The notes beneath the pieces were generated by a model, which saw only the letters and a list, made by a program, of their open reading frames with translations, was not told where the DNA came from and did no database searches. Below, piece by piece: positions 47,544 to 62,756 of a stretch of DNA of 64,000 nt (position 1 is its first letter; each line of letters begins with the position of its first letter). Origin of the DNA: Nitrospirota bacterium (GTDB lineage: Bacteria; Nitrospirota; Nitrospiria; Nitrospirales; Nitrospiraceae); NCBI GenBank assembly GCA_030684575.1, contig JAUXVD010000008.1, forward strand, positions 372,001-436,000, in the 5' to 3' direction. The position numbers were made by a program, and so were the translations under genes.

Positions 47544-48974
47544 TCAGGAGGGTCTTGTGTGAGCCGGTGCTAAGGAGGGTGAGACTGCCTCGTAGGCATG
47601 CCAGCCCCCGCCTAGCGCTTTATACAGTTGTACGACTGAGACGAGCTGCAGCCGATGAGTGCTGGCCAGCGCGAGTTCCGCTTCGAAGAGGCTGCGTTGA
47701 GCCACGAGGACATCGAGATAGTTGGCGAGCCCACCCTTATATCGGAGGCTGGCAAGTTGCAGGGCAGACCGCAGGGCCTCCACCTGTTCCGCCTGCGCGG
47801 CTCGTTGCTCACGTGCCGTCTTGACGGCCACGAGTGCGTCTTCCACTTCCCGAAAGGCCACGAGTATCGTTTGCTCATACTGAGCGAGCAGCTCGCGCGC
47901 CTGTGCCTCGGCTGCCTCTTGCTGGAAGCCCAGGATCTGGGCATTCAGCAATGGACCAGCCACACCGAGACCCACGACGCCAAAGGAGGTCTCGTTGGCC
48001 ACCAGTCTGGACAATTGTGGACTGGCCACTCCGAGAATCCCCGTGATGCTGAGTTTCGGAAAGCGGTCCGCCTTCGCCACGCCGATTCTCGCTGTGGCTG
48101 CCGCCAAGCCCTGCTCTGCCTGCACCACGTCCGGTCGGCGCTGCAGCAACTCCGACGGGAGGCCGGGCGGCACGTCCGGTGGCATCACCTGTTCGGTTAG
48201 AGACTGTCCCCGCGCAATGCGGCCGGGATTTCGCCCGAGCAACAGGCTGAGCTGATTTTCTTTTTGTACTTTCTGCCGTTCCAATTCAGCCAGACGCGCC
48301 ACCGCGTTGGCCCGTTCAGCCACGAACTGATCCGCGTCGATTTTCGTTACCACTCCCTGGCGTACCCGCGCCTGCGCGATCTTGACCGAGTCCTCCCACG
48401 ATCGCAGCGTTCGCGTCGCGATGTCCCGCTGCCGATCGAGCTGCAGCAGGTCAAAGTACGATTCCGCGACTCCGCTCACAAGCTGCAGGATCGTGGCGCG
48501 TCGCGCTTCCTCACGGGCCAGGAGGTCGCCGCGTGCCGCCTCGTTGGATCGGCGGATGCGACCCCAGATGTCCAGTTCCCAGGAGAGATTGCCCTGGAGA
48601 TAATAGTTGAAGGCGTTGGGGAAACCGGGGAAGAGAAACTCCGCTTTCCGTCCGAACGAAGGAGCATTGGCTACGAGATCGGCGTTGGGCGCAAAATCCA
48701 TCTTCGTGATGAACAGACGCGCCTGAAACTCTTCGACCGAAGCCACGGCCCGCTTGAGGTCTTTGTTCTCTCCCAGTGCCACCTTGATGAGCCGCTGGAG
48801 CTCTTTGTCCTGTAGGAGATCCCACCAGGGCAGGTTGGCAAATGACGTGGCCTCCTGCTCGGCGTCAGCCATCCTGAACGAGGCCGGGGTGGACATATCC
48901 GGGCGGGAATAGTCCGGGCCCACCGCGCAAGCCGCGAGGGACAAGAGCCCTATCAGTAGTATGAGTATGCGCAT
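47544..48974 (-). CDS. Outer-membrane factor of an RND efflux pump (OprM/NodT type)
   Basis: A 476-residue TolC-like lipoprotein. After the lipobox (LLSLAAC) it reads AVGPDYSRPD, the common OprM start, then the duplicated OEP repeats with LSWELDIWGRIRRSNEAARGD and RRPDVVQAEQGLAAATARIG. It would form the outer-membrane channel for the RND permease and adaptor encoded upstream on the same strand. ATG 48974 is chosen because it starts the lipoprotein signal. Confidence 0.93.
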   Translation of the reverse strand: MRILILLIGLLSLAACAVGPDYSRPDMSTPASFRMADAEQEATSFANLPWWDLLQDKELQRLIKVALGENKDLKRAVASVEEFQARLFITKMDFAPNADLVANAPSFGRKAEFLFPGFPNAFNYYLQGNLSWELDIWGRIRRSNEAARGDLLAREEARRATILQLVSGVAESYFDLLQLDRQRDIATRTLRSWEDSVKIAQARVRQGVVTKIDADQFVAERANAVARLAELERQKVQKENQLSLLLGRNPGRIARGQSLTEQVMPPDVPPGLPSELLQRRPDVVQAEQGLAAATARIGVAKADRFPKLSITGILGVASPQLSRLVANETSFGVVGLGVAGPLLNAQILGFQQEAAEAQARELLAQYEQTILVAFREVEDALVAVKTAREQRAAQAEQVEALRSALQLASLRYKGGLANYLDVLVAQRSLFEAELALASTHRLQLVSVVQLYKALGGGWHAYEAVSPSLAPAHTRPS

Positions 48975-49124
48975 GTCAGTCACGTCCTTCCTCTCGCACC
49001 CTGTTCTGCTCCTCATGGCCTGATTTCGACCGGACTCGCACAGGGGGCTTCTTTCACGTCAGGGAATTGAATACCAACCGCGCCAGCAATAGGATCGAAG
49101 CCCGTCTCCGCGTGACGACATGGC

Positions 49125-49436
49125 TTAGGGTATCCGGCCTTGATGCCCGTTCGATCGCTTCCCGGGATTCGAGGCCGTGATCTGACGCACCAGGCAATTG
49201 TTCAAGCAGCCGGCCGCTTGCAGTTGCGCTCCCTCCTGCCAGAGCCGGCGGAGCAGCGCCTGTCCCGAATGGTCCACGAAGGTGACGCCCGTGAAATTCA
49301 CCACGGCACCGCGTCTCCTCTCCTTCGCGATCGTGCGCCAACAGTCCCGTAGCTCCTGCACCCAGGGGCCGGCGAGTCGCCCCTCGACGATGAGGGTGAC
49401 GGATTTCGTCTCTTGATGGGTCGTGATCTTCAACAT
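49125..49436 (-). CDS. STAS-domain protein
   Basis: A 103-residue protein with the STAS fold: MLKITTHQETKSVTLIVEGR, GAVVNFTGVTFVDHSGQALL and RQITA. The loop DHSG stands where anti-sigma-factor antagonists have DSSG with the phosphorylated Ser. ATG 49436 has a GGGGAGATGGGGAG ribosome region. A GTG at 49598 would overlap the upstream stop by 4 bp and add 54 residues, so the start is open. It lies between the diiron protein and the outer-membrane factor. Confidence 0.75.
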   Translation of the reverse strand: MLKITTHQETKSVTLIVEGRLAGPWVQELRDCWRTIAKERRRGAVVNFTGVTFVDHSGQALLRRLWQEGAQLQAAGCLNNCLVRQITASNPGKRSNGHQGRIP

Positions 49437-49594: not shown

Positions 49595-50344
49595 TCACCG
49601 GACCTGTCCTGTGCCGGGTCCGAGCACTTCCCGCATAGTGACGGCCAGGTCGCGGAGCGCCTGCTCACCGTTCCCCACGAAGGTGGAACCATGCATGAGC
49701 GCCAATTGTTTTGGCCGAAGATCCGCCAATCCCTGCAGAATCGGATCGGTCAGCGCGGTGTAGGGATAGGCGTTCGCAAACGGCCCTTGCTGACTCTTGA
49801 TCAATCCCAGCCTTGCGCGGTCGACGATGTCCGATTCCGTGATCGCCTCGACATCCCCTTCATGGGTGAAGAGATCCGAGCAGAGCAACGTGCGCGTGAC
49901 TTCCTCGAACAGCAGGCTCGCTTCCCAGCCATGCGGCACATGGGGCGTGTGGCGAAAACGAAACCGATATCGGCCGGTTCTCAGGACCTCTTCCTGCTCG
50001 AGTATGCGAGCCGGGCGGACGGAGAAATCGTTCACGCTGACGAGGGCGGCAACCCGGCCGCACAGCGGTTCGGCCCGTGGCGCCAGGGCCAGCCATTCGT
50101 TCAGCGCGCCGCATTCGTCCGCCTCGAAATGACTGAACGAAATCCAGCGGATGGTCCCTGGGTCTATGATGCGCGCGACCGCATCCATCACCAGCGGGAA
50201 CATCTGCTTCATCCCGGTGTGGAACAACAGAGGCTCGTCATCCTTGATCAGGTAGTGATTGAACCGGAGATTGAATTCCGGCACATAGGCCGAGATCACA
50301 TAGTGATCTGGCGCAATTTCCGTTACTCTGGCCCTATCCATCAT
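49595..50344 (-). CDS. Metallo-beta-lactamase-fold protein with flavodiiron-type ligands
   Basis: A 249-residue protein. The full ligand set of oxygen-binding diiron proteins is seen: HFEADECGA (His-x-Glu-x-Asp), His in [10 protein letters not shown], Asp in LLCSDLF and His in LMHGSTF. The flavodoxin domain of flavodiiron NO/O2 reductases is missing, so it is the stand-alone ODP type, suited to bind O2 or NO rather than reduce it alone. AAGGAGGGG precedes the ATG. It follows the RND permease by 81 bp on the same strand. Confidence 0.85.
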
Positions 50345-50425
50345 CGCCCCTCCTTCTTGTGACGCGGCCCCCCCGCACCTCGACACGTGAGACATGGCGC
50401 CTGGCCGGTGGCTCTCACAGGATCA

Positions 50426-53400
50426 TCACTGGGATAGAACGGGAACTGCTCTTCCAGTGGCCTCATTCCTCTCACCCCTTGCACCCACGAGCAGCAATTC
50501 TTCTTCCTCTACCGCTTCGTGAGTCGGACTAGGTTGATGCTGAGCCGCAATGAGCGAGTAAAACACCGGGACGACGAACAGGGTGAACAGGGTGCCCACG
50601 GTCATGCCTGTGACCAGGACCATCCCGATACTGTTTCTGGCTGCCGCGCCTGGTCCTGACGCCAGCACCAGGGGGAGGTGCCCGAAGACCGTGGCGGCCG
50701 AGGTCATCAACACCGGTCGCAGCCTCGTGAGCGAGGCCTCTCGCAATGCCGCTGTTTTGGAGAGCCCGCGGGCTTGGAGCGTATTGGCAAACTCCACGAT
50801 CAGGATTCCGTTCTTCGCGATCAGGCCCACCAGTGTGATCAATCCGACCTGGGAATAGATGTTGATCGTGGTCAGGTCCAGGAAGCTGAACAGCAGGGCG
50901 CCGGAAATGGCGAGCGGAACGGATCCCAGCAAGACGATCAGCGGGTCACGGAAGCTCTGGAACTGCGCTGCCAGGACCAGATAGATGAGCACGATCGCGA
51001 ACCCGAGCGTGACGGTCAGGGCCGACCCCTCGTGGCGGATCTGTCTCGACTCTCCCGCATAGTCGAGGACGACAGGGGGACTGCCCGTTGTCGCGGCGGC
51101 CGCCTCAAGGACGCGCAGCCCCTCCTCTTTGGTGATGCCCGGCTTGACGCCTCCGAAGACCCGGACGGCGTTGCGCTGTTGGAAGCGATTCAACGTACGC
51201 GGGGCGGTGCTCGACTCGATGTGGGTGAAGGTCGAGACCGGCACGAGTTGTCCTCCGGGTGTCTTGATCTTCAAATCGAGCAGTGGGCTGACGGTGGAGC
51301 GATTCTCGTCGCCGATTTGCGGAATGACCTTGTAACTGCGGTCGAAGTAGTTGAAGCGATTGACGTAGGCGCCCCCGAGCATCGTGCCGAGTTCCTGACC
51401 GACGCCGGCCAGATCCAGCCCGAGATCGGCGAGACGCTCGCGATCGAGGATGACGCGCGCCTCGGGCAAGTCGATATTCAAATCGGTATCGACGTACAGG
51501 AACTTGCCGCTCCGCCATCCCGCATCGAGCACCGCGGCCGTGGTCTCGAGCATCTGGCCGATTGGCACATCGCTCTGCAGGACCAACTCGACGTCGTACT
51601 GGCCGGGGGTCGGCAACGGGGGGTCGAGACGCGGAAAAACGCGCAGACCGGGCACCTGGGAGACCGCGCCGAAGACTTCCCCGTACATCTCTTCTGTCGA
51701 ACGGGTCCGTTCGCGCCAGTCCTTCGCGACCAATCCACCGAAGCCGCCCCAAGCGGTCGTCAGGGACCAGGCGAACCGGGCCTCGGGGAACGCCGTTAAG
51801 GTCTTCACCGCTTTCAGCGACTCCCGATTGGTCGCGTCCAGCGTCGAGTCCGGAGACGCTTCGAGAAAGAGGCTGATGTGGCTCTGGTCCTCGACCGGCG
51901 CGAGTTCCTGCCGTGAGAACAGATACAGGGGCCAGGCCGATACCATGATGAGCAATGCCGCCACCACGATCCCCCAGCGCATCTGTAAGGCCTCGTCGAG
52001 CCCTCGCGCGTAGGCGCGCCGGACGACCTCGAACGCGCGGTTGACCAGCGCCGTCAGCCGACCTTCTTTTCCCTGAGGATGGACAAAATACGCACTCATC
52101 ATCGGCGAGAGCGTGACCGCGACGATGCCGGACAGGACCACAGCCGCTGCGAGTGTGATGGCAAACTCAAGGAACAACGAGCCGGTCAGTCCCCCCTGAA
52201 ATCCGATCGGGGCATAGACCGCCGCCAGGGTAATCGTCATGGCGATAATCGGGCCGAGCAGTTCGCGCGCCCCGAGCAACGCCGCTTCGGTTCGTGATTT
52301 CCCCAGACGGACGTGCCGCTCGACGTTTTCGACGACGACAATGGCATCGTCCACCACCAGGCCCACCGACAGGACGATCGCCAGGAGTGTCAGGAGATTG
52401 AGACTGAACCCGAATGCGACCATGAAGATCGCCGCGCCGATGAGCGACACCGGCATGGCGACGAGAGGGACCAGCGCGGTCCGCACCGATCCCATGAAGA
52501 GGAATACCACCACGGCGACGATCGCGATCGTTTCGGCGAGCGTCTTGGCGATTTCTTTCAGCGCATTCTCCATGAACATCGTCCCGTTCCAGACAAGTTG
52601 CATGTCGATGTCCTGCGGCAATGTCGGCCGGATGCGCTCCATCTCATCGCGCAGCCGGTGTGCGACCTCGATCTCGTTCGAGCCGATCAGCGGCCAGACC
52701 CCAAGATAGACCCCTTCCTTGTCGTTGTACTTCGCGATCATGTCGGCTTCTTCGGCGCCGAGCTCGATCCGTGCCACGTCGCTCAGTCGGATGATGGCCC
52801 CGTCGCGATCGGCGATGATCAGGTTCTCAAATTCGGTGACGGAGCGGAGATCGGTGTTGGCGAGCAGGTTGACCTGCACGAGGTTTCCTTTGGTTCGGCC
52901 GACCGCCGCCAGGTAGTTATTACGCCTGAGTGCCGCCTGGACATCGCCGGGCGAGAGGTTGACCGTGGCGAGGCGATCAGGATCGATCCAGACGCGCATC
53001 GCGATCTGACGTCCGCCCTCGATCGTCACACGCTGGACGCCGGCCAGCGTGGCGAGTTGCGGCTGCAGGGTACGCAGCAACCAATCCGTCACCGCCGGCA
53101 CGGTGCGCTCGGTGGACGTGAAGCTGAGGTAGAACGACGCATAGGGACGATCCGCACGTTGCACATCGATCACCGGGGGCTCCGCTTCCTGAGGCAGCTC
53201 CGCCCGCACCTGTTGCAGCCGAGCCGTGACTTCGGCCAGCGCTGCCGTGCTGCTGTGGTTCAATTTGAGATGGACCGTGACGGTGCTGATGCCGGCCCGG
53301 CTGGTCGACTCCACGTAGTCGACCCCGCCGATTGCAGAGACCACCCGCTCGATCGGCGTGGTCAGGAAGCCACGGACGGTCTCGGCTGCGGCGCCGTAGT

Positions 53401-53554
53401 ACAGGGTGGTGATGACGACCGCCGCGCTTTCAATTTTCGGATACTGCTGGACCGGCAGGGTGGTCAGGGCCCGCCACCCCACCAGTACGATGGCCAGATT
53501 GACGACGATCGCCAGGACAGGGTGTTTGATAAACATGTCGGTGAATGAGCGCAT
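50426..53554 (-). CDS. RND efflux permease, HAE1 family
   Basis: A 1042-residue AcrB-like inner-membrane pump. The duplicated layout of twelve helices and two large periplasmic loops is complete. The proton-relay residues are in VGLVVDDAIVVVENVERH (two Asp) and GLIAKNGILIVEFAN (Lys). ATG 53554 (MRSFTDMFIKHPVLA) matches the usual start. ATG 53587 overlaps the adaptor stop by 1 bp and would add 11 residues. It is transcribed with the adaptor from a sigma-54 promoter. Confidence 0.95.
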   Translation of the reverse strand: MRSFTDMFIKHPVLAIVVNLAIVLVGWRALTTLPVQQYPKIESAAVVITTLYYGAAAETVRGFLTTPIERVVSAIGGVDYVESTSRAGISTVTVHLKLNHSSTAALAEVTARLQQVRAELPQEAEPPVIDVQRADRPYASFYLSFTSTERTVPAVTDWLLRTLQPQLATLAGVQRVTIEGGRQIAMRVWIDPDRLATVNLSPGDVQAALRRNNYLAAVGRTKGNLVQVNLLANTDLRSVTEFENLIIADRDGAIIRLSDVARIELGAEEADMIAKYNDKEGVYLGVWPLIGSNEIEVAHRLRDEMERIRPTLPQDIDMQLVWNGTMFMENALKEIAKTLAETIAIVAVVVFLFMGSVRTALVPLVAMPVSLIGAAIFMVAFGFSLNLLTLLAIVLSVGLVVDDAIVVVENVERHVRLGKSRTEAALLGARELLGPIIAMTITLAAVYAPIGFQGGLTGSLFLEFAITLAAAVVLSGIVAVTLSPMMSAYFVHPQGKEGRLTALVNRAFEVVRRAYARGLDEALQMRWGIVVAALLIMVSAWPLYLFSRQELAPVEDQSHISLFLEASPDSTLDATNRESLKAVKTLTAFPEARFAWSLTTAWGGFGGLVAKDWRERTRSTEEMYGEVFGAVSQVPGLRVFPRLDPPLPTPGQYDVELVLQSDVPIGQMLETTAAVLDAGWRSGKFLYVDTDLNIDLPEARVILDRERLADLGLDLAGVGQELGTMLGGAYVNRFNYFDRSYKVIPQIGDENRSTVSPLLDLKIKTPGGQLVPVSTFTHIESSTAPRTLNRFQQRNAVRVFGGVKPGITKEEGLRVLEAAAATTGSPPVVLDYAGESRQIRHEGSALTVTLGFAIVLIYLVLAAQFQSFRDPLIVLLGSVPLAISGALLFSFLDLTTINIYSQVGLITLVGLIAKNGILIVEFANTLQARGLSKTAALREASLTRLRPVLMTSAATVFGHLPLVLASGPGAAARNSIGMVLVTGMTVGTLFTLFVVPVFYSLIAAQHQPSPTHEAVEEEELLLVGARGERNEATGRAVPVLSQ

Positions 53555-53586
53555 GCGAATATCCTTGTCTAATCTTCCGGATGTCA

Positions 53587-54714
53587 TCAGCGGCTGCTGA
53601 GCAACCGGGTATGGGCGGCATCGCCGCCCTGTTCCCCGGCGATCTCGACCAGCACTCCGTCGCGGAGTTTGAACGATCCTGAGGTCGCGACCAGTTCGCC
53701 GCTGGCCAGCCCTGCATGGATGACGGTCTCATCGCCGAGCATCGCGCCGCTCTCGACCTGCCGCACCTGCGCACGGGTTTTGCCATCCTTGCCCGGTGCG
53801 ATCACGAACACTTGGTCGCCGCTTGGGCCCTTGCGCAGTGCGCTGACGGGGACTGCAATCGCCTTGCGCGGCGGACCGACCGGAACCTGGACCCGCACCG
53901 AGGCTCCCGGGGACGGCGGCCGAGCCAGTCCCTTGATGTTGGCCCGCACCATGGCATTGCGAGTCGTCGGATCGATGCGCGCATCGAGCGCGAGGATCGT
54001 GGCCACGATCGGGGACGACTGGTTCGCGAGGAACACGTCGACAGGGTCGCCTTCCTGCAGAGTGAGGGCGACTTGTTGCGCGACGGTGAAGTCCACATGG
54101 ACCGCGTCGTCGATACCCTGCAGGGTCGTGAGTTGGGTCCCTTCAAGGAGGTACTGTCCGGGATGCACGTCTGCGATACCCACCTGCGCTTTGAACGGGG
54201 CACGAATGGTCTTGCGGGCGATGATCGCTTTGGTCCGCGCGATCTGGGCCAACGCGACCTCGAGGTCTGCTCCTGCACGATCTACCTCTTCCTGGGTCGT
54301 CGCCTGGTCTTGATTCAAATTGTGCCTGCGAGCGAAGACCGACTTCGCAAGCCTCGCCTGCGCCTCTTGGGCCCTGAGATCGGCTTCTTCGACGGATACG
54401 TCGAGCGCGATCAGCACCGTCCCTGCCTCGACAATCTGGCCGGGTACGAGCGTGACGTGGTGGACCGTGCCGGGAAGCTCGTTCCGCACGGTGATCGATC
54501 GCAGAGCCAGGACCGTTCCGATCGAGGTGGTGGTTGGGCGGTGTTCTACCGCTTTCGCCTCGGCAACCATCACCGACTCTGTCGGTTCAGGCTGGCTGGC
54601 AGAGGCTGCATGACCGGCTTGGATGGACTCGTATTTCCATGCGCCCAAGCCCAGGCCGAGGGCGGTGAGGACGATGAGCAACAGCAATGACCCGACCCAG
54701 CCACGACGATTCAT
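53587..54714 (-). CDS. RND periplasmic adaptor subunit
   Basis: A 375-residue membrane-fusion protein. After one N-terminal helix (VGSLLLLIVLTALGLGLGAW) come the lipoyl/barrel-sandwich parts (ITVRNELPGTVHHVTLVPGQ and IRAPFKAQVGIADVHPGQYL), an alpha-hairpin and beta-barrel. ATG 54714 is chosen because the predicted sigma-54 transcript starts near 54783, which rules out 54798. It links the permease to the outer-membrane factor. Confidence 0.93.
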   Translation of the reverse strand: MNRRGWVGSLLLLIVLTALGLGLGAWKYESIQAGHAASASQPEPTESVMVAEAKAVEHRPTTTSIGTVLALRSITVRNELPGTVHHVTLVPGQIVEAGTVLIALDVSVEEADLRAQEAQARLAKSVFARRHNLNQDQATTQEEVDRAGADLEVALAQIARTKAIIARKTIRAPFKAQVGIADVHPGQYLLEGTQLTTLQGIDDAVHVDFTVAQQVALTLQEGDPVDVFLANQSSPIVATILALDARIDPTTRNAMVRANIKGLARPPSPGASVRVQVPVGPPRKAIAVPVSALRKGPSGDQVFVIAPGKDGKTRAQVRQVESGAMLGDETVIHAGLASGELVATSGSFKLRDGVLVEIAGEQGGDAAHTRLLSSR

Positions 54715-54793
54715 CTGTGACGCCCCCCTGCTATCTGATTCTGACGAAGCCTCTCTGGAGTTCCTGCTCTGTGTAAACATGCGACGATACTTC

Positions 54794-54809
54794 AGCAATG
54801 ACCGTTCCA
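54794..54809 (-). promoter_or_regulatory. Sigma-54 promoter of the RND operon
   Basis: On the minus strand the sequence TGGAACGGTCATTGCT (54809-54794) matches TGGCACG-N4-TTGCW except one base. The invariant GG and GC are separated by exactly 10 bp. The start site would be near 54783, about 70 nt before the adaptor ATG. Confidence 0.8.
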
Positions 54810-54934
54810 GGCAGGAGTCGGGCCGGTGAAGGCAGGCTAACTATTGAATGACATGGAAAATTGTTATGAAGTTGAAGATGGTGACGAGGCAGGGGGAAAA
54901 CTGTGATGCCGAAGTATTCGTGCCAGCAGGTCGG

Positions 54935-54958
54935 CATGTGCCGGAATGTCGGCACATG
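54935..54958 (-). promoter_or_regulatory. Probable upstream activator site for the sigma-54 activator
   Basis: CATGTGCCG-N6-CGGCACATG is a perfect palindrome with 9-bp arms. Its centre lies about 140 bp upstream of the -24 element, the usual distance for looping activators. A second, looser pair ATGCCGA (54906-54912)/TCGGCAT (54931-54937) shares the GCCG core. The activator gene ends 35 bp away. Confidence 0.75.
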
Positions 54959-54993
54959 ATGTAGGGGAAACAACGTATCGTGAACGAACGGAG

Positions 54994-57585
54994 CTAGGAA
55001 GGGCGGGCGATCCCGAGTTTCTGCATTTTGGATTGGAGCGTGGTCCGCTTCACCCCGAGCTTCGCAGCAGCGCCGGTAGGACCGCCGATCGTCCAGTTCG
55101 AGTCGCGCAGCGCCTTGAGAATATGTTCGCGCTCGGCTTGCTCGAGGGTCGAGCGATTGGACGGTCCAGCCGGACCGGCCGCCCGTTTCAACTCTGTCAC
55201 CGGCACGAACAGGTCCTGTCCCTTCGTCAGAATCACGGCTCGCTCGACGAAATTCTCGAGTTCCCGTACATTGCCCGGCCACGGATAATTTTGTAACGCT
55301 TTCATGGCCTCTGCCGGAATCGTCTCGATGCGTTTCTTCATTCGCTGGGCGAATTTCTGGGTGAAGTGTCTGACGAGCAACGGGATATCCTCCACGCGTT
55401 CGCGCAGGGGAGGGGCCGTCATGGGAAACACCTTGAGCCGGTAGTACAAGTCGCCGCGAAACTTCTGCTCCCCCACCATCTGCTCGAGGTCGCGATTGGT
55501 CGCGGCGATCACGCGGACATTGACACGGATCGTTCGGCTGCTTCCCAGGCGTTCGAACTCCTGTTCCTGCAGGACCCGGAGTAACTTGACTTGAAGTTCC
55601 AATGGAATGTCGCCCACTTCGTCGAGGAAGATCGTTCCTCGGTCGGCTAATTCGAATCGGCCGATCTTCGTGGCGATGGCTCCGGTGAACGCGCCCTTTT
55701 CGTGACCAAAGAGTTCGCTCTCGAGCAAACCGGTTGGAATCGCAGCGCAGTTGAGCTTGACGAAGGTGCGATCCTTCCGGTCACTCAGCGCGTGCAGCGC
55801 GCGAGCAACCAGTTCTTTTCCGCTCCCTGTTTCGCCGAGGATTAGCACCGTGGAGTCGGTGGACGCCACGGTCCGGACTTGCTTGAGCACGCGCTTGAGC
55901 GCATGGCTCTCGCCGACGATTTCCTCGAAGTTATGTTCGGTCTGGATCTCTTCTTCGAGATACAGCTTTTCCTTGGCGAGCGTATCTTTCAGCCGCTCGA
56001 CTTCCTGGTGCGCCAAGGCGTTTTCCACGGCGATCGCGATCTGATGCGCGACCTGATGCAGGAGTTCGCCTTCGGCTGGTGTAAAATCCTGTTCGTGCAG
56101 GCGTGAGACATCCAGTGTTCCGAGCACCTTGTCGTGCGACACGAGGGGAACGGAGCAGAGCGCTTTGACCCCTTGATCCAGCAGCTGCCGGGTCATGTCG
56201 GATTCGACGGCCAAGAGTTCCAGATCCCGCCGCCGATAGATCACGGGCTGCCTGGTTGTAAAGGCCCGTTCTGACGGGCACTTACAGTCGGATGAGACCT
56301 GGCCTTCCTCAATGAACTCTGCGGCCGTCGTGAAATCCAGCACGTGCGCTCGATAGCGTTGCGTGTCGGGGTCGCACAGGACCAGGGTCGATCCGTCGTG
56401 CTGGATGACCGTTCTGAGGCAACCGCTGACGGCCTTGAACAGATCGCTCAGGCTGAGCCGGGAGACGACCGCATTGTTGACCTCCAAGAGGAGACGCTGG
56501 CGATCGCGTTCCTGCTCCAATTGCTGTTGCGCCGACCTGGCGCTCTGGGCATGTAGTGCGTTGTCCACGGCAACCGCCACCTGTTTGGCCACCTGGCGCA
56601 TGAAATTGATATCCGCTTCTTGATAGGCCCTCTTTTGCAGGCTTCCGAAGCCCATGGCCCCCAGGCGCCGTTGTGCCGTTGTGAGAGGAACCACGCAAAA
56701 GGATCCCACACCGTTCTCGCGAAACAGCTTCATCAGTCCGGGGAAGCGCCGCTCTTGCTCCACGTCGTCGACCGACAGCGGCTGTTGGGTTTTCCACACC
56801 AACCCACCGGGTGATTCGTCCACAGGGGTTTCCAGGCCGGGGCTGATCGTCGTCGGTTGAGATGTCACCAGCAACCAAAGGCGCATCGCGTTCCGTGCAG
56901 GCTCATGGAGGACGGCGTTGATGAAATTGAAGGGCACGATGTGCGGGAGCCGCTGCGCGAGATCCTGAAACAGCTCTTCAAGGACGTGATGTGACGCAAT
57001 GGACTCGGATACCTCAAGGAGAAGGCGCAACCGGTCTCGGTCGCGAGTCAAGGCTTGATGATGGATGACATTGTCTACGGCGACCGCGACCTGATTGCCG
57101 ACCTGCCGGAGGAATTCAACATCTGCCTCGTCATAGGCGCTTTTCTGGAGGCTTGAAAACCCCAGCGCGCCCAACCGCCGCAACGACGTCGTCAGTGGCA
57201 CGAAACAACAGGAATTGATACCGTCCTCCTGCATCCGCTGCAGGACCTTCGGCCAGCGTGGTTCTTCGGCGAGATCAGGAACGATGATCGGCTGTTGCGT
57301 ATGCCAGACCATTCCGGCAGGAGTTTCCTCAACCGGCTCCTCATGGCCGCCCAGCAGATCGGCCGGCACGTTGGCCTGCACCGTGTGTAACTGCATGACG
57401 TTGCGCTCTGGATCGTGCAACGACAGGCCGACGAAATTTACGTGCACCACGCGCGGGAGACGTTGAGCAAGGTCGCGACATAAGTCGCGCAGGTCCTGGT
57501 GGGCAGAGATCGATTCCGCAACTCCCAGAAGCATGTGGTACTTCTCTGCCAGACTGTCGCAGGGCGATAGGGATTGCCGGTTCAT
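54994..57585 (-). CDS. Sigma-54-dependent activator with three GAF domains (FhlA-like)
   Basis: An 863-residue regulator. Three tandem GAF domains occupy residues about 15-175, 185-345 and 360-515, the first two clearly duplicated ([14 protein letters not shown] and [15 protein letters not shown]). The AAA+ domain follows with Walker [15 protein letters not shown], the sigma-54 contact loop GAFTGA in [10 protein letters not shown], and Walker [10 protein letters not shown] Fis-type HTH ends the protein ([18 protein letters not shown]). It would sense a small ligand through GAF and drive the RND operon from the adjacent promoter. Confidence 0.95.
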
Positions 57586-57652
57586 AGGCGCACAGTATGA
57601 TCCATACTCTTGTCACGACTCAAGATGACTCACCTGGGAGACGGCCGGTCGT

Positions 57653-58162
57653 TCATGCTCCGTCCGCATGGCGACCTGAGTGCCCCTCGTAGGCTTGCTT
57701 GAGCTTGTTGATGTCGGGTTTGGTCATCTGGAGCACGGCCTTCATGACGCGTTCAGATTTCGCGGCATCCTTGTCTCGCAACATGTCTTCCCACACCGGG
57801 GAGACGATTTGCCACGACAGACCATATTGATCCTTCAGCCAGCCACAGGGTCCTTGTTCTCCGCCTTGGGAGAGCTTGTCCCACATCTCGTCGATCGCTT
57901 CCTGCGTTTCGCACTTCACCATCATCGAGACGGCCTCAGTAAACTTGAAGATGGGGCCGCCGTTTAAGGCCACGAACTCCTGCCCTTCGATCTCAAACGT
58001 CACGGTCATCACCGATCCTGTTGGTCTTCCGGAGACCTCCGCGCCTGCCTCTCCATAGCGAGTCATTGCGGTGACTTTCGAATTTTTAAAAATCGAAACA
58101 TAAAAGTTCGCCGCCTCTTCGGCCTTGTCGTCGAACCACAAACAGGGAGTGATTCTCTGCAT
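57653..58162 (-). CDS. PhnB-like VOC protein
   Basis: A 169-residue glyoxalase-fold protein with PhnB/3-demethylubiquinone-methyltransferase-like pattern: ITPCLWFDDKAEEAANFYVS, EFVALNGGPIFKFTEAVSMM, and GWLKDQYGLSWQIVSP. Function unknown; metal ligands are not obvious. ATG 58162 with GGAGG. An ECF42-type site lies about 45 bp upstream. Confidence 0.9.
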   Translation of the reverse strand: MQRITPCLWFDDKAEEAANFYVSIFKNSKVTAMTRYGEAGAEVSGRPTGSVMTVTFEIEGQEFVALNGGPIFKFTEAVSMMVKCETQEAIDEMWDKLSQGGEQGPCGWLKDQYGLSWQIVSPVWEDMLRDKDAAKSERVMKAVLQMTKPDINKLKQAYEGHSGRHADGA

Positions 58163-61487: not shown

Positions 61488-62756
61488 TCACGAGCCGGTC
61501 GAGCCCGGTAGCTCGTTCAGCCGTTTCTCCAAAAACCGCCGTTCCGGTTCCTGCTGCGTCAGGCTCAGGGCTCGCTGGTAAGAGGTGCGGGCCTCGTTCG
61601 TCCGTCCTAGCCGCCGGCAGAGATCCGCCCGCGCGGCATGTGCCAAGTGATAGGTGTCCAGATCTCCTGTCTTCAAGATGGTATCGATCAGGTCCAAACC
61701 GGCTGACGGACCGTCTCGCATGGCGACGGCGACGGCGCTATTCAGCTCGATCACCGGTGAAGGACAGGCCTGAAGCAGCAAGCCATAGAGCGCGACGATC
61801 TGGGCCCAATCCGTAGCCAGGGCGGCGGGCGCTTGCGTATGCACCGCAGCAATCGCTCCCTGGATGGTATAGGGGCCGACCTGACCCTGGGACATGGCCT
61901 GTCTGACGAGCGCGACTCCTTCCATGATCTGGTCTCGATTCCACAGAGCGCGATCTTGATCCTCTAATAAAATGAGTTCGCCGGTTGCGGTGGCGCGCGC
62001 GGCCTTCCGGGAGTCCTGCAAGAGCATCAATCCTAGCAATCCCGTCGATTCCGACTGCGGGAGCAAGGTATTCAGCAGTCGGCCTAAGCGAATCGCTTCC
62101 CCACAGAGATCGTGCCGCGTCACGGCTTCACCGAATGAGGCCGAGTATCCTTCGTTGAAGACGAGGTAGACCACGCGGAGCACGGCGTCCCATCGGTCCG
62201 GCAGTTCTTTCTCGGATGGTACCTCATAGGGAATGCGCGCGTCGCGGATCTTGGCCTTGGCCCGCACGATCCGCTGCGCGACGGTGGCCGGTTTTGTCAG
62301 GAATGCCCGCGCGATCTCTTCAGTCGTGAGACCGCAGACTTCGCGCAGGGTCATGGCGGCCTGGGCTTCAGGCGCGAGGGCGGGATGACAACATGTGAAG
62401 ATCAATCGGAGCCGGTCGTCCTCGAGGTGTTCGTCCTCCTGCTGTTCGGTCTCAATTGTGGCTGTGGGTTCCGTTTCCTTTGCCAATTCTGCCACAGACG
62501 CATCATGCCGGGCGCGACGGCGCATCCCGTCGATGGCTTTGAAACGTCCAGTCGAAACGAGCCAAGCTCTCGGATTGGCCGGCACACCGTCTCGCGCCCA
62601 TTGCTCGACCGCCACGGCAAAGGCTTCGTGCAAGGCCTCTTCGGCAGCGTCGAAGTCGCCAAGCAGGCGTATCAGCGTCGCGAGCACCTGTCGCGACTCA
62701 GCGCGATAGATCGTCTCCACCACTGTCCTCGTCCGACTGGAGGCCTCGTCGCTCAT
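61488..62756 (-). CDS. ECF42-type RNA polymerase sigma factor with TPR-like C-terminus
   Basis: A 422-residue sigma factor. Region 2 (GDFDAAEEALHEAFAVAVEQ with WLVSTGRFKAIDGMRR) and region 4 (MTLREVCGLTTEEIARAFL) lie in the first 185 residues. The long C-terminal extension (DUF6596, then TPR-like helices; ELNSAVAVAMRDGPSAGLDL) marks the ECF42 group. No anti-sigma gene is near, in keeping with that group, where the extension controls activity. DGPF genes, its usual targets, follow directly. Confidence 0.93.
   Translation of the reverse strand: MSDEASSRTRTVVETIYRAESRQVLATLIRLLGDFDAAEEALHEAFAVAVEQWARDGVPANPRAWLVSTGRFKAIDGMRRRARHDASVAELAKETEPTATIETEQQEDEHLEDDRLRLIFTCCHPALAPEAQAAMTLREVCGLTTEEIARAFLTKPATVAQRIVRAKAKIRDARIPYEVPSEKELPDRWDAVLRVVYLVFNEGYSASFGEAVTRHDLCGEAIRLGRLLNTLLPQSESTGLLGLMLLQDSRKAARATATGELILLEDQDRALWNRDQIMEGVALVRQAMSQGQVGPYTIQGAIAAVHTQAPAALATDWAQIVALYGLLLQACPSPVIELNSAVAVAMRDGPSAGLDLIDTILKTGDLDTYHLAHAARADLCRRLGRTNEARTSYQRALSLTQQEPERRFLEKRLNELPGSTGS

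Follow-up and report, generated by a model that had tools for sequence, protein, structure and literature searches.

A predicted sigma-54 promoter with conserved tandem upstream sites ahead of an RND efflux operon in the Nitrospiraceae

The locus lies within a 64,000-nucleotide stretch of a Nitrospirota genome (hereafter the window), and its features are listed in Table 1. Genes for an RND periplasmic adaptor and an RND permease are preceded by a control region and by the gene for a sigma-54 activator. The adaptor ATG follows AGGGGGG (54729–54723), and its placement in the preliminary description is borne out by agreement with the MNRR-type starts of its orthologues. The ODP gene is probably part of the pump operon; no ODP gene was seen there in the loci examined from N. 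defluvii and of the CG24 type. The small STAS-like gene has the ODP gene on one side and the outer-membrane gene on the other, and its relatives in other Nitrospira adjoin this pump or a sister pump. An Rfam search of 50000–58000 found no RNA. At 61488–62756 the window encodes a sigma-70-family protein (regions 2 and 4) with a C-terminal DUF6596 and TPR.

Table 1. Genes and control elements of the efflux locus, in window coordinates.
Feature	Position	Strand	Remarks
Outer-membrane efflux protein (NodT type)	47544–49016	-	Beside the STAS-like gene
STAS-like small protein (MLKITTHQE...)	49125–49436	-	Weak Pfam STAS match, E 0.029
ODP-family metallo-beta-lactamase-fold protein	49595–50395	-	Between permease and STAS-like gene
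RND (ACR_tran) permease, 1053 aa	50426–53587	-	Overlaps adaptor stop
RND periplasmic adaptor (HlyD_3/HlyD_D23, RND_mfp), 375 aa	53587–54714	-	ATG 54714
Predicted +1	54783	-	12 nt past the -12 C at 54795; from standard sigma-54 geometry
Sigma-54 -24/-12 element, TGGAACGGTCATTGCT	54809–54794	-	GG 54808–54807, GC 54796–54795; exact GG-N10-GC spacing
Third conserved half-site, TCGGCA	54912–54907	-	Outside search pattern
Upstream activator site B, TGCCGACCTGCTGGCA, TGCCGA-CCTG-CTGGCA	54936–54921	-	Weaker right half; 18 bp from site A
Upstream activator site A, TGCCGACATTCCGGCA, TGCCGA-CATT-CCGGCA	54954–54939	-	Core of the palindrome first described
Inverted repeat first described	54958–54935	-	CATGTGCCG-ACATTC-CGGCACATG
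Sigma-54 activator, 863 aa: three GAF, AAA+ (Sigma54_activat), Fis-type HTH	54994–57585	-	GAFTGA motif intact

A check of the sequence confirmed the -24/-12 element as first reported, with one mismatch between TGGAACGGTCATTGCT and the consensus TGGCACGNNNNTTGCW. Allowing up to two mismatches, the plain 16-mer occurs seven times in the 64-kb window compared with 10.3 expected, indicating no excess over chance, and the tighter form TGGNACGNNNNTTGCW occurs once in the window and six times in the 3.79-Mb genome, the pump copy included. A similar or identical element occupies the equivalent position in 37 homologous loci. The genome encodes RpoN (E 1.4e-55), the absence of which the preliminary description had named as grounds for rejecting its reading. 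The predicted start would give the adaptor transcript a leader of 69 nt. Judged from its sequence, the DNA ahead of the RND efflux operon is a genuine sigma-54 promoter, a switch of the conventional kind.

The palindrome upstream of this element was first described as perfect over 24 bp, which it is not: its arms are perfect over 9 bp and flank six non-palindromic nucleotides, with 20 of 24 positions symmetric. The accompanying distance of 140 bp holds from the palindrome center to the -24 box, whereas edge to edge the two are 125 bp apart. Several further places in the window have arms of 9 bp or more separated by no more than 8 nt, so the inverted repeat by itself is not striking. As a functional unit, TGTGCCG-N6-CGGCACA gave 31 near-matches per strand of the genome compared with 19 for the reversed control, a modest excess only, and the flanking CATG of the 24-mer is not conserved in relatives. 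The unit was therefore redefined. When several upstream regions are read side by side, what is conserved proves to be two 16-bp sites in tandem, each YGCCGA-N4-TCGGCA, at 18-bp spacing. In the window, site B carries two mismatches and the whole pair is a three-mismatch match; the tandem sites lie 145 bp upstream of the -24 box, within the 100–250 bp range used for activator sites. The tandem pattern has a single occurrence in the 3.8-Mb genome, at the pump, and its reversal has none. A looser pattern (18- or 19-bp spacing) finds one three-mismatch match elsewhere in the genome, at C21:19487.

To survey the family, regions around adaptor homologues were taken from whole genomes, and 75 upstream regions, that of the window included, were searched for two sites 17–19 bp apart followed by a GG-N10-GC element 110–170 bp downstream. 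This composite arrangement is present in 38 of the 75 adaptor loci (window included); the site-to-site spacing is 18 bp in all 38, and the site-to-promoter distance is 140–145 bp in 32 of them. Shuffled sequences gave 0 of 375 and reversed sequences none. The tandem pattern with up to two mismatches was found in 63 of 147 family genomes, with one reversed-control match overall. The search consensus was drawn from the surveyed loci themselves, the window among them, so that the fair evidence comes from these controls, from searching whole genomes, and from positions outside the search pattern; the counts are moreover not independent, since the genomes are related. Among the unsearched positions of the composite loci, the A after TGG is conserved at 95% and the ATT of the N4 spacer at 84–95%, and in the third half-site, 42–47 bp from the start of the pair, five of six positions are 82–95% conserved. 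The nearest named relatives of the window genome are Nitrospira MAGs, N. defluvii, and N. moscoviensis, and the N. defluvii pump locus has the same layout, with GGGAACGGTCGTTGCT and the tandem site. In an amoA search addressing the comammox question, the control had no match anywhere. An accidental origin of both motifs, toward which the chance-level frequency of the 16-mer with up to two mismatches and the several similar-sized repeats in the window might point, is refuted in practice by the composite survey: conservation across genomes, together with the shuffled, reversed, and whole-genome controls, leaves it scarcely credible.

The inverted repeat lies 35 bp past the activator stop codon and can be folded as a 9-bp hairpin, and it could thus be read as the terminator of the activator gene, with the pump transcribed from a sigma-70 promoter or by read-through. 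However, the repeat has no T run, its hairpin fold is ordinary (z -1.4), and terminator-like and sigma-70-like sites are absent from 54500–55100. In relatives, the sites hold their distance to the sigma-54 element while the distance to the activator stop varies between 0.26 and 16 kb. This reading is accordingly very improbable.

The gene adjoining the palindrome is an activator gene, as first proposed. Its product has an intact GAFTGA motif, a Walker motif, and an HTH, as bacterial enhancer-binding proteins do. The nearest NCBIfam model is FhlA (NF011958; E 1.6e-195), with a score of 651.7 bits that is below the cut-off of 830, and the NorR model scores 392.8 bits, under its cut-off of 476; by these models the activator is FhlA-like, and not FhlA. 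A close relative (E≤1e-180) is encoded in 79 of the 147 family genomes. When orthologues are counted as activators of about 63% identity or more, one is present in all 38 genomes with the composite promoter, and the composite promoter is present in none of the 14 genomes lacking an orthologue; ten genomes have the activator and no composite promoter at the adaptor gene. The association has a Fisher p of 7e-8, uncorrected for relatedness. In many relatives, the tandem site directly follows the activator gene. In one genome (G118), the activator is located ~16 kb away, and in two others (G108 and G134) it is on another contig, with the tandem site still at the pump, indicating that the site is more than a stretch of DNA linked to the activator gene. 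In six genomes, a change in the recognition helix from TTLQSKM to TTLHSKM accompanies a change of the sites from TCGGCA to TCGTCA, which is suggestive only, as G102 and G110 break the rule by combining TCGTCA/TGACGA-type sites with the common helix TTLQSKM. Sites of the TGTCGA/TCGTCA type occur at loci L099, L107, L108, L110, L112, and L128, with Q-to-H in the recognition helix of the activator.

The genome of the window encodes about 24 sigma-54 activator-type proteins, the closest being a paralogue with 53% identity across 395 aa, the HTH included. A paralogue could therefore act at the tandem site of a real sigma-54 promoter, the adjacent gene being a mere neighbor. We consider this improbable in view of the co-occurrence of promoter and adjacent-gene orthologue without exception in 38 genomes, the many relatives whose tandem site immediately follows the activator gene, and the helix changes that track the site changes in six genomes, G102 and G110 being misfits. 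It is most likely the adjacent activator that occupies the tandem site and drives expression of the efflux operon. The original proposal of a sigma-54 promoter under an adjacent activator is thus supported by 38 homologous loci with near-fixed spacing and an activator orthologue in all. The same loci uphold the upstream sites of what had been called a complete control region, a description that had missed site B and the third half-site.

Given the observed DNA elements, their conserved spacing, the co-occurrence of the activator, and the presence of RpoN, it is very probable that the region is an enhancer-dependent sigma-54 promoter of the RND efflux operon, worked by the FhlA-like activator encoded immediately upstream. 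What follows on binding, looping, the start site, the extent of the operon, and the signal is inferred. The C-terminal Fis-type HTH of the activator would bind the tandem TGCCGA-N4-TCGGCA pair and the half-site, about 125–170 bp upstream of +1. A signal perceived by the three GAF domains would release or assemble the AAA+ hexamer, and looping of the DNA would allow the GAFTGA loops to contact sigma-54 at TGGAACGGTCATTGCT. Transcription from about 54783 would then cover the adaptor, the permease, and probably the ODP and STAS-like genes.

Systems of this type are well known, and the Nitrospira pump switch is a further example. For NorR, the activator oligomer uses several enhancer sites ahead of a sigma-54 promoter as its assembly scaffold (PMC2941729). 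In sigma-54 regulons of Clostridiales studied by comparative genomics, the activator usually adjoins its target, mostly controls one or few operons, and has multiple inverted-repeat sites 100–250 bp upstream of the promoter (PMC6615313). The anatomy of the pump control region fits both arrangements. Like the locus described here, the NorR-norVW system of E. coli combines a GAF-AAA+-HTH activator with multiple enhancer sites before a sigma-54 promoter, whereas NorR has a single NO-sensing GAF domain and an NO-detoxification target. E. coli FhlA, acting at the hyc and fdhF promoters, likewise has an N-terminal sensor region, AAA+, HTH, a sigma-54 target promoter, and binding sites upstream of its target genes. 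In contrast to FhlA, which targets hydrogenase genes, the Nitrospira activator has three GAF domains and a drug-efflux operon as its predicted target; its predicted site is the tandem YGCCGA-N4-TCGGCA. The Clostridiales systems differ in phylum, in targets, and in motifs, which are mostly TGT-N10-12-ACA (PMC6615313). A UT-2/SMR/RND/OsmC/MBL cluster of Nitrospira, in which RND efflux lies beside a sigma-54-dependent regulator (PMC12516955), is probably the same kind of locus; unlike our analysis, the available passages of that paper give no promoter, binding site, or regulon.

Other genomes carry the same pump under a different regulator. Eight other genomes of the window's genus have adaptor orthologues of 71–74% identity, and where the adaptor start is covered a TetR-type gene runs into it, with no sigma-54 element (loci L085, L086, L087, L090, and L095). 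In a Burkholderiaceae MAG and a Verrucomicrobium, too, a TetR gene lies before the adaptor, and the non-Nitrospira adaptor homologues examined have neither the upstream sites nor a sigma-54 element at the pump. The adaptor tree places the five congeneric TetR-type sequences that it includes in a supported clade of their own. The window sequence groups, on a long branch, with the other Nitrospira sequences, a placement compatible with vertical inheritance and with transfer. A different long palindrome, TGCCGATCATTCAGCAAATGCTGAAATTTCGGCA, is kept in several genomes of the genus (L281 and L282; G005:C158:4250, G002:C22:330954, and similar) and has no sigma-54 element nearby.

In relatives of the window genome, the tandem site also stands ahead of further sigma-54 elements, at about 141–145 or 126–130 bp. 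The predicted targets are a VTT(DedA)-rhodanese protein beside the activator, and a small STAS-like protein with a second RND adaptor after it; N. defluvii has both DedA-type and pump promoters. Promoters of the STAS-like/second RND type (L248, L254, L255, and L262–L265) have the site-to-promoter distance of 126–130 bp, not 141–145. Many Nitrospira STAS-like genes carry their own tandem site and sigma-54 element. No second such pair was found ahead of the STAS-like gene of the window, and a genome search for the tandem pattern found the pump promoter only. A literature search reaching few subscription papers found no description of the tandem site or the regulon, and a wider Nitrospira regulon of two RND pumps, DedA-rhodanese, and STAS-like genes, with a membership predicted from sequence patterns, appears to be undescribed. 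Whether the FhlA-like activator and the tandem YGCCGA-N4-TCGGCA enhancer define such a sigma-54 envelope/efflux regulon of the Nitrospiraceae, one that has replaced an ancestral TetR-repressor arrangement that congeners and some non-Nitrospira homologues retain, we judge to be evenly balanced. If so, a multidrug pump once repressed would now be activated from an enhancer in an all-or-none manner. Because genomes differ in whether this pump is under TetR or a sigma-54 activator, it offers a tractable case of regulator exchange. For Nitrospira, a key group of nitrifiers in which genetic manipulation is difficult, the tandem sites and promoter would provide a precise cis-regulatory code for a stress/efflux regulon, one that can be read in MAGs from the DNA alone and that predicts which operons may be controlled by a single activator.
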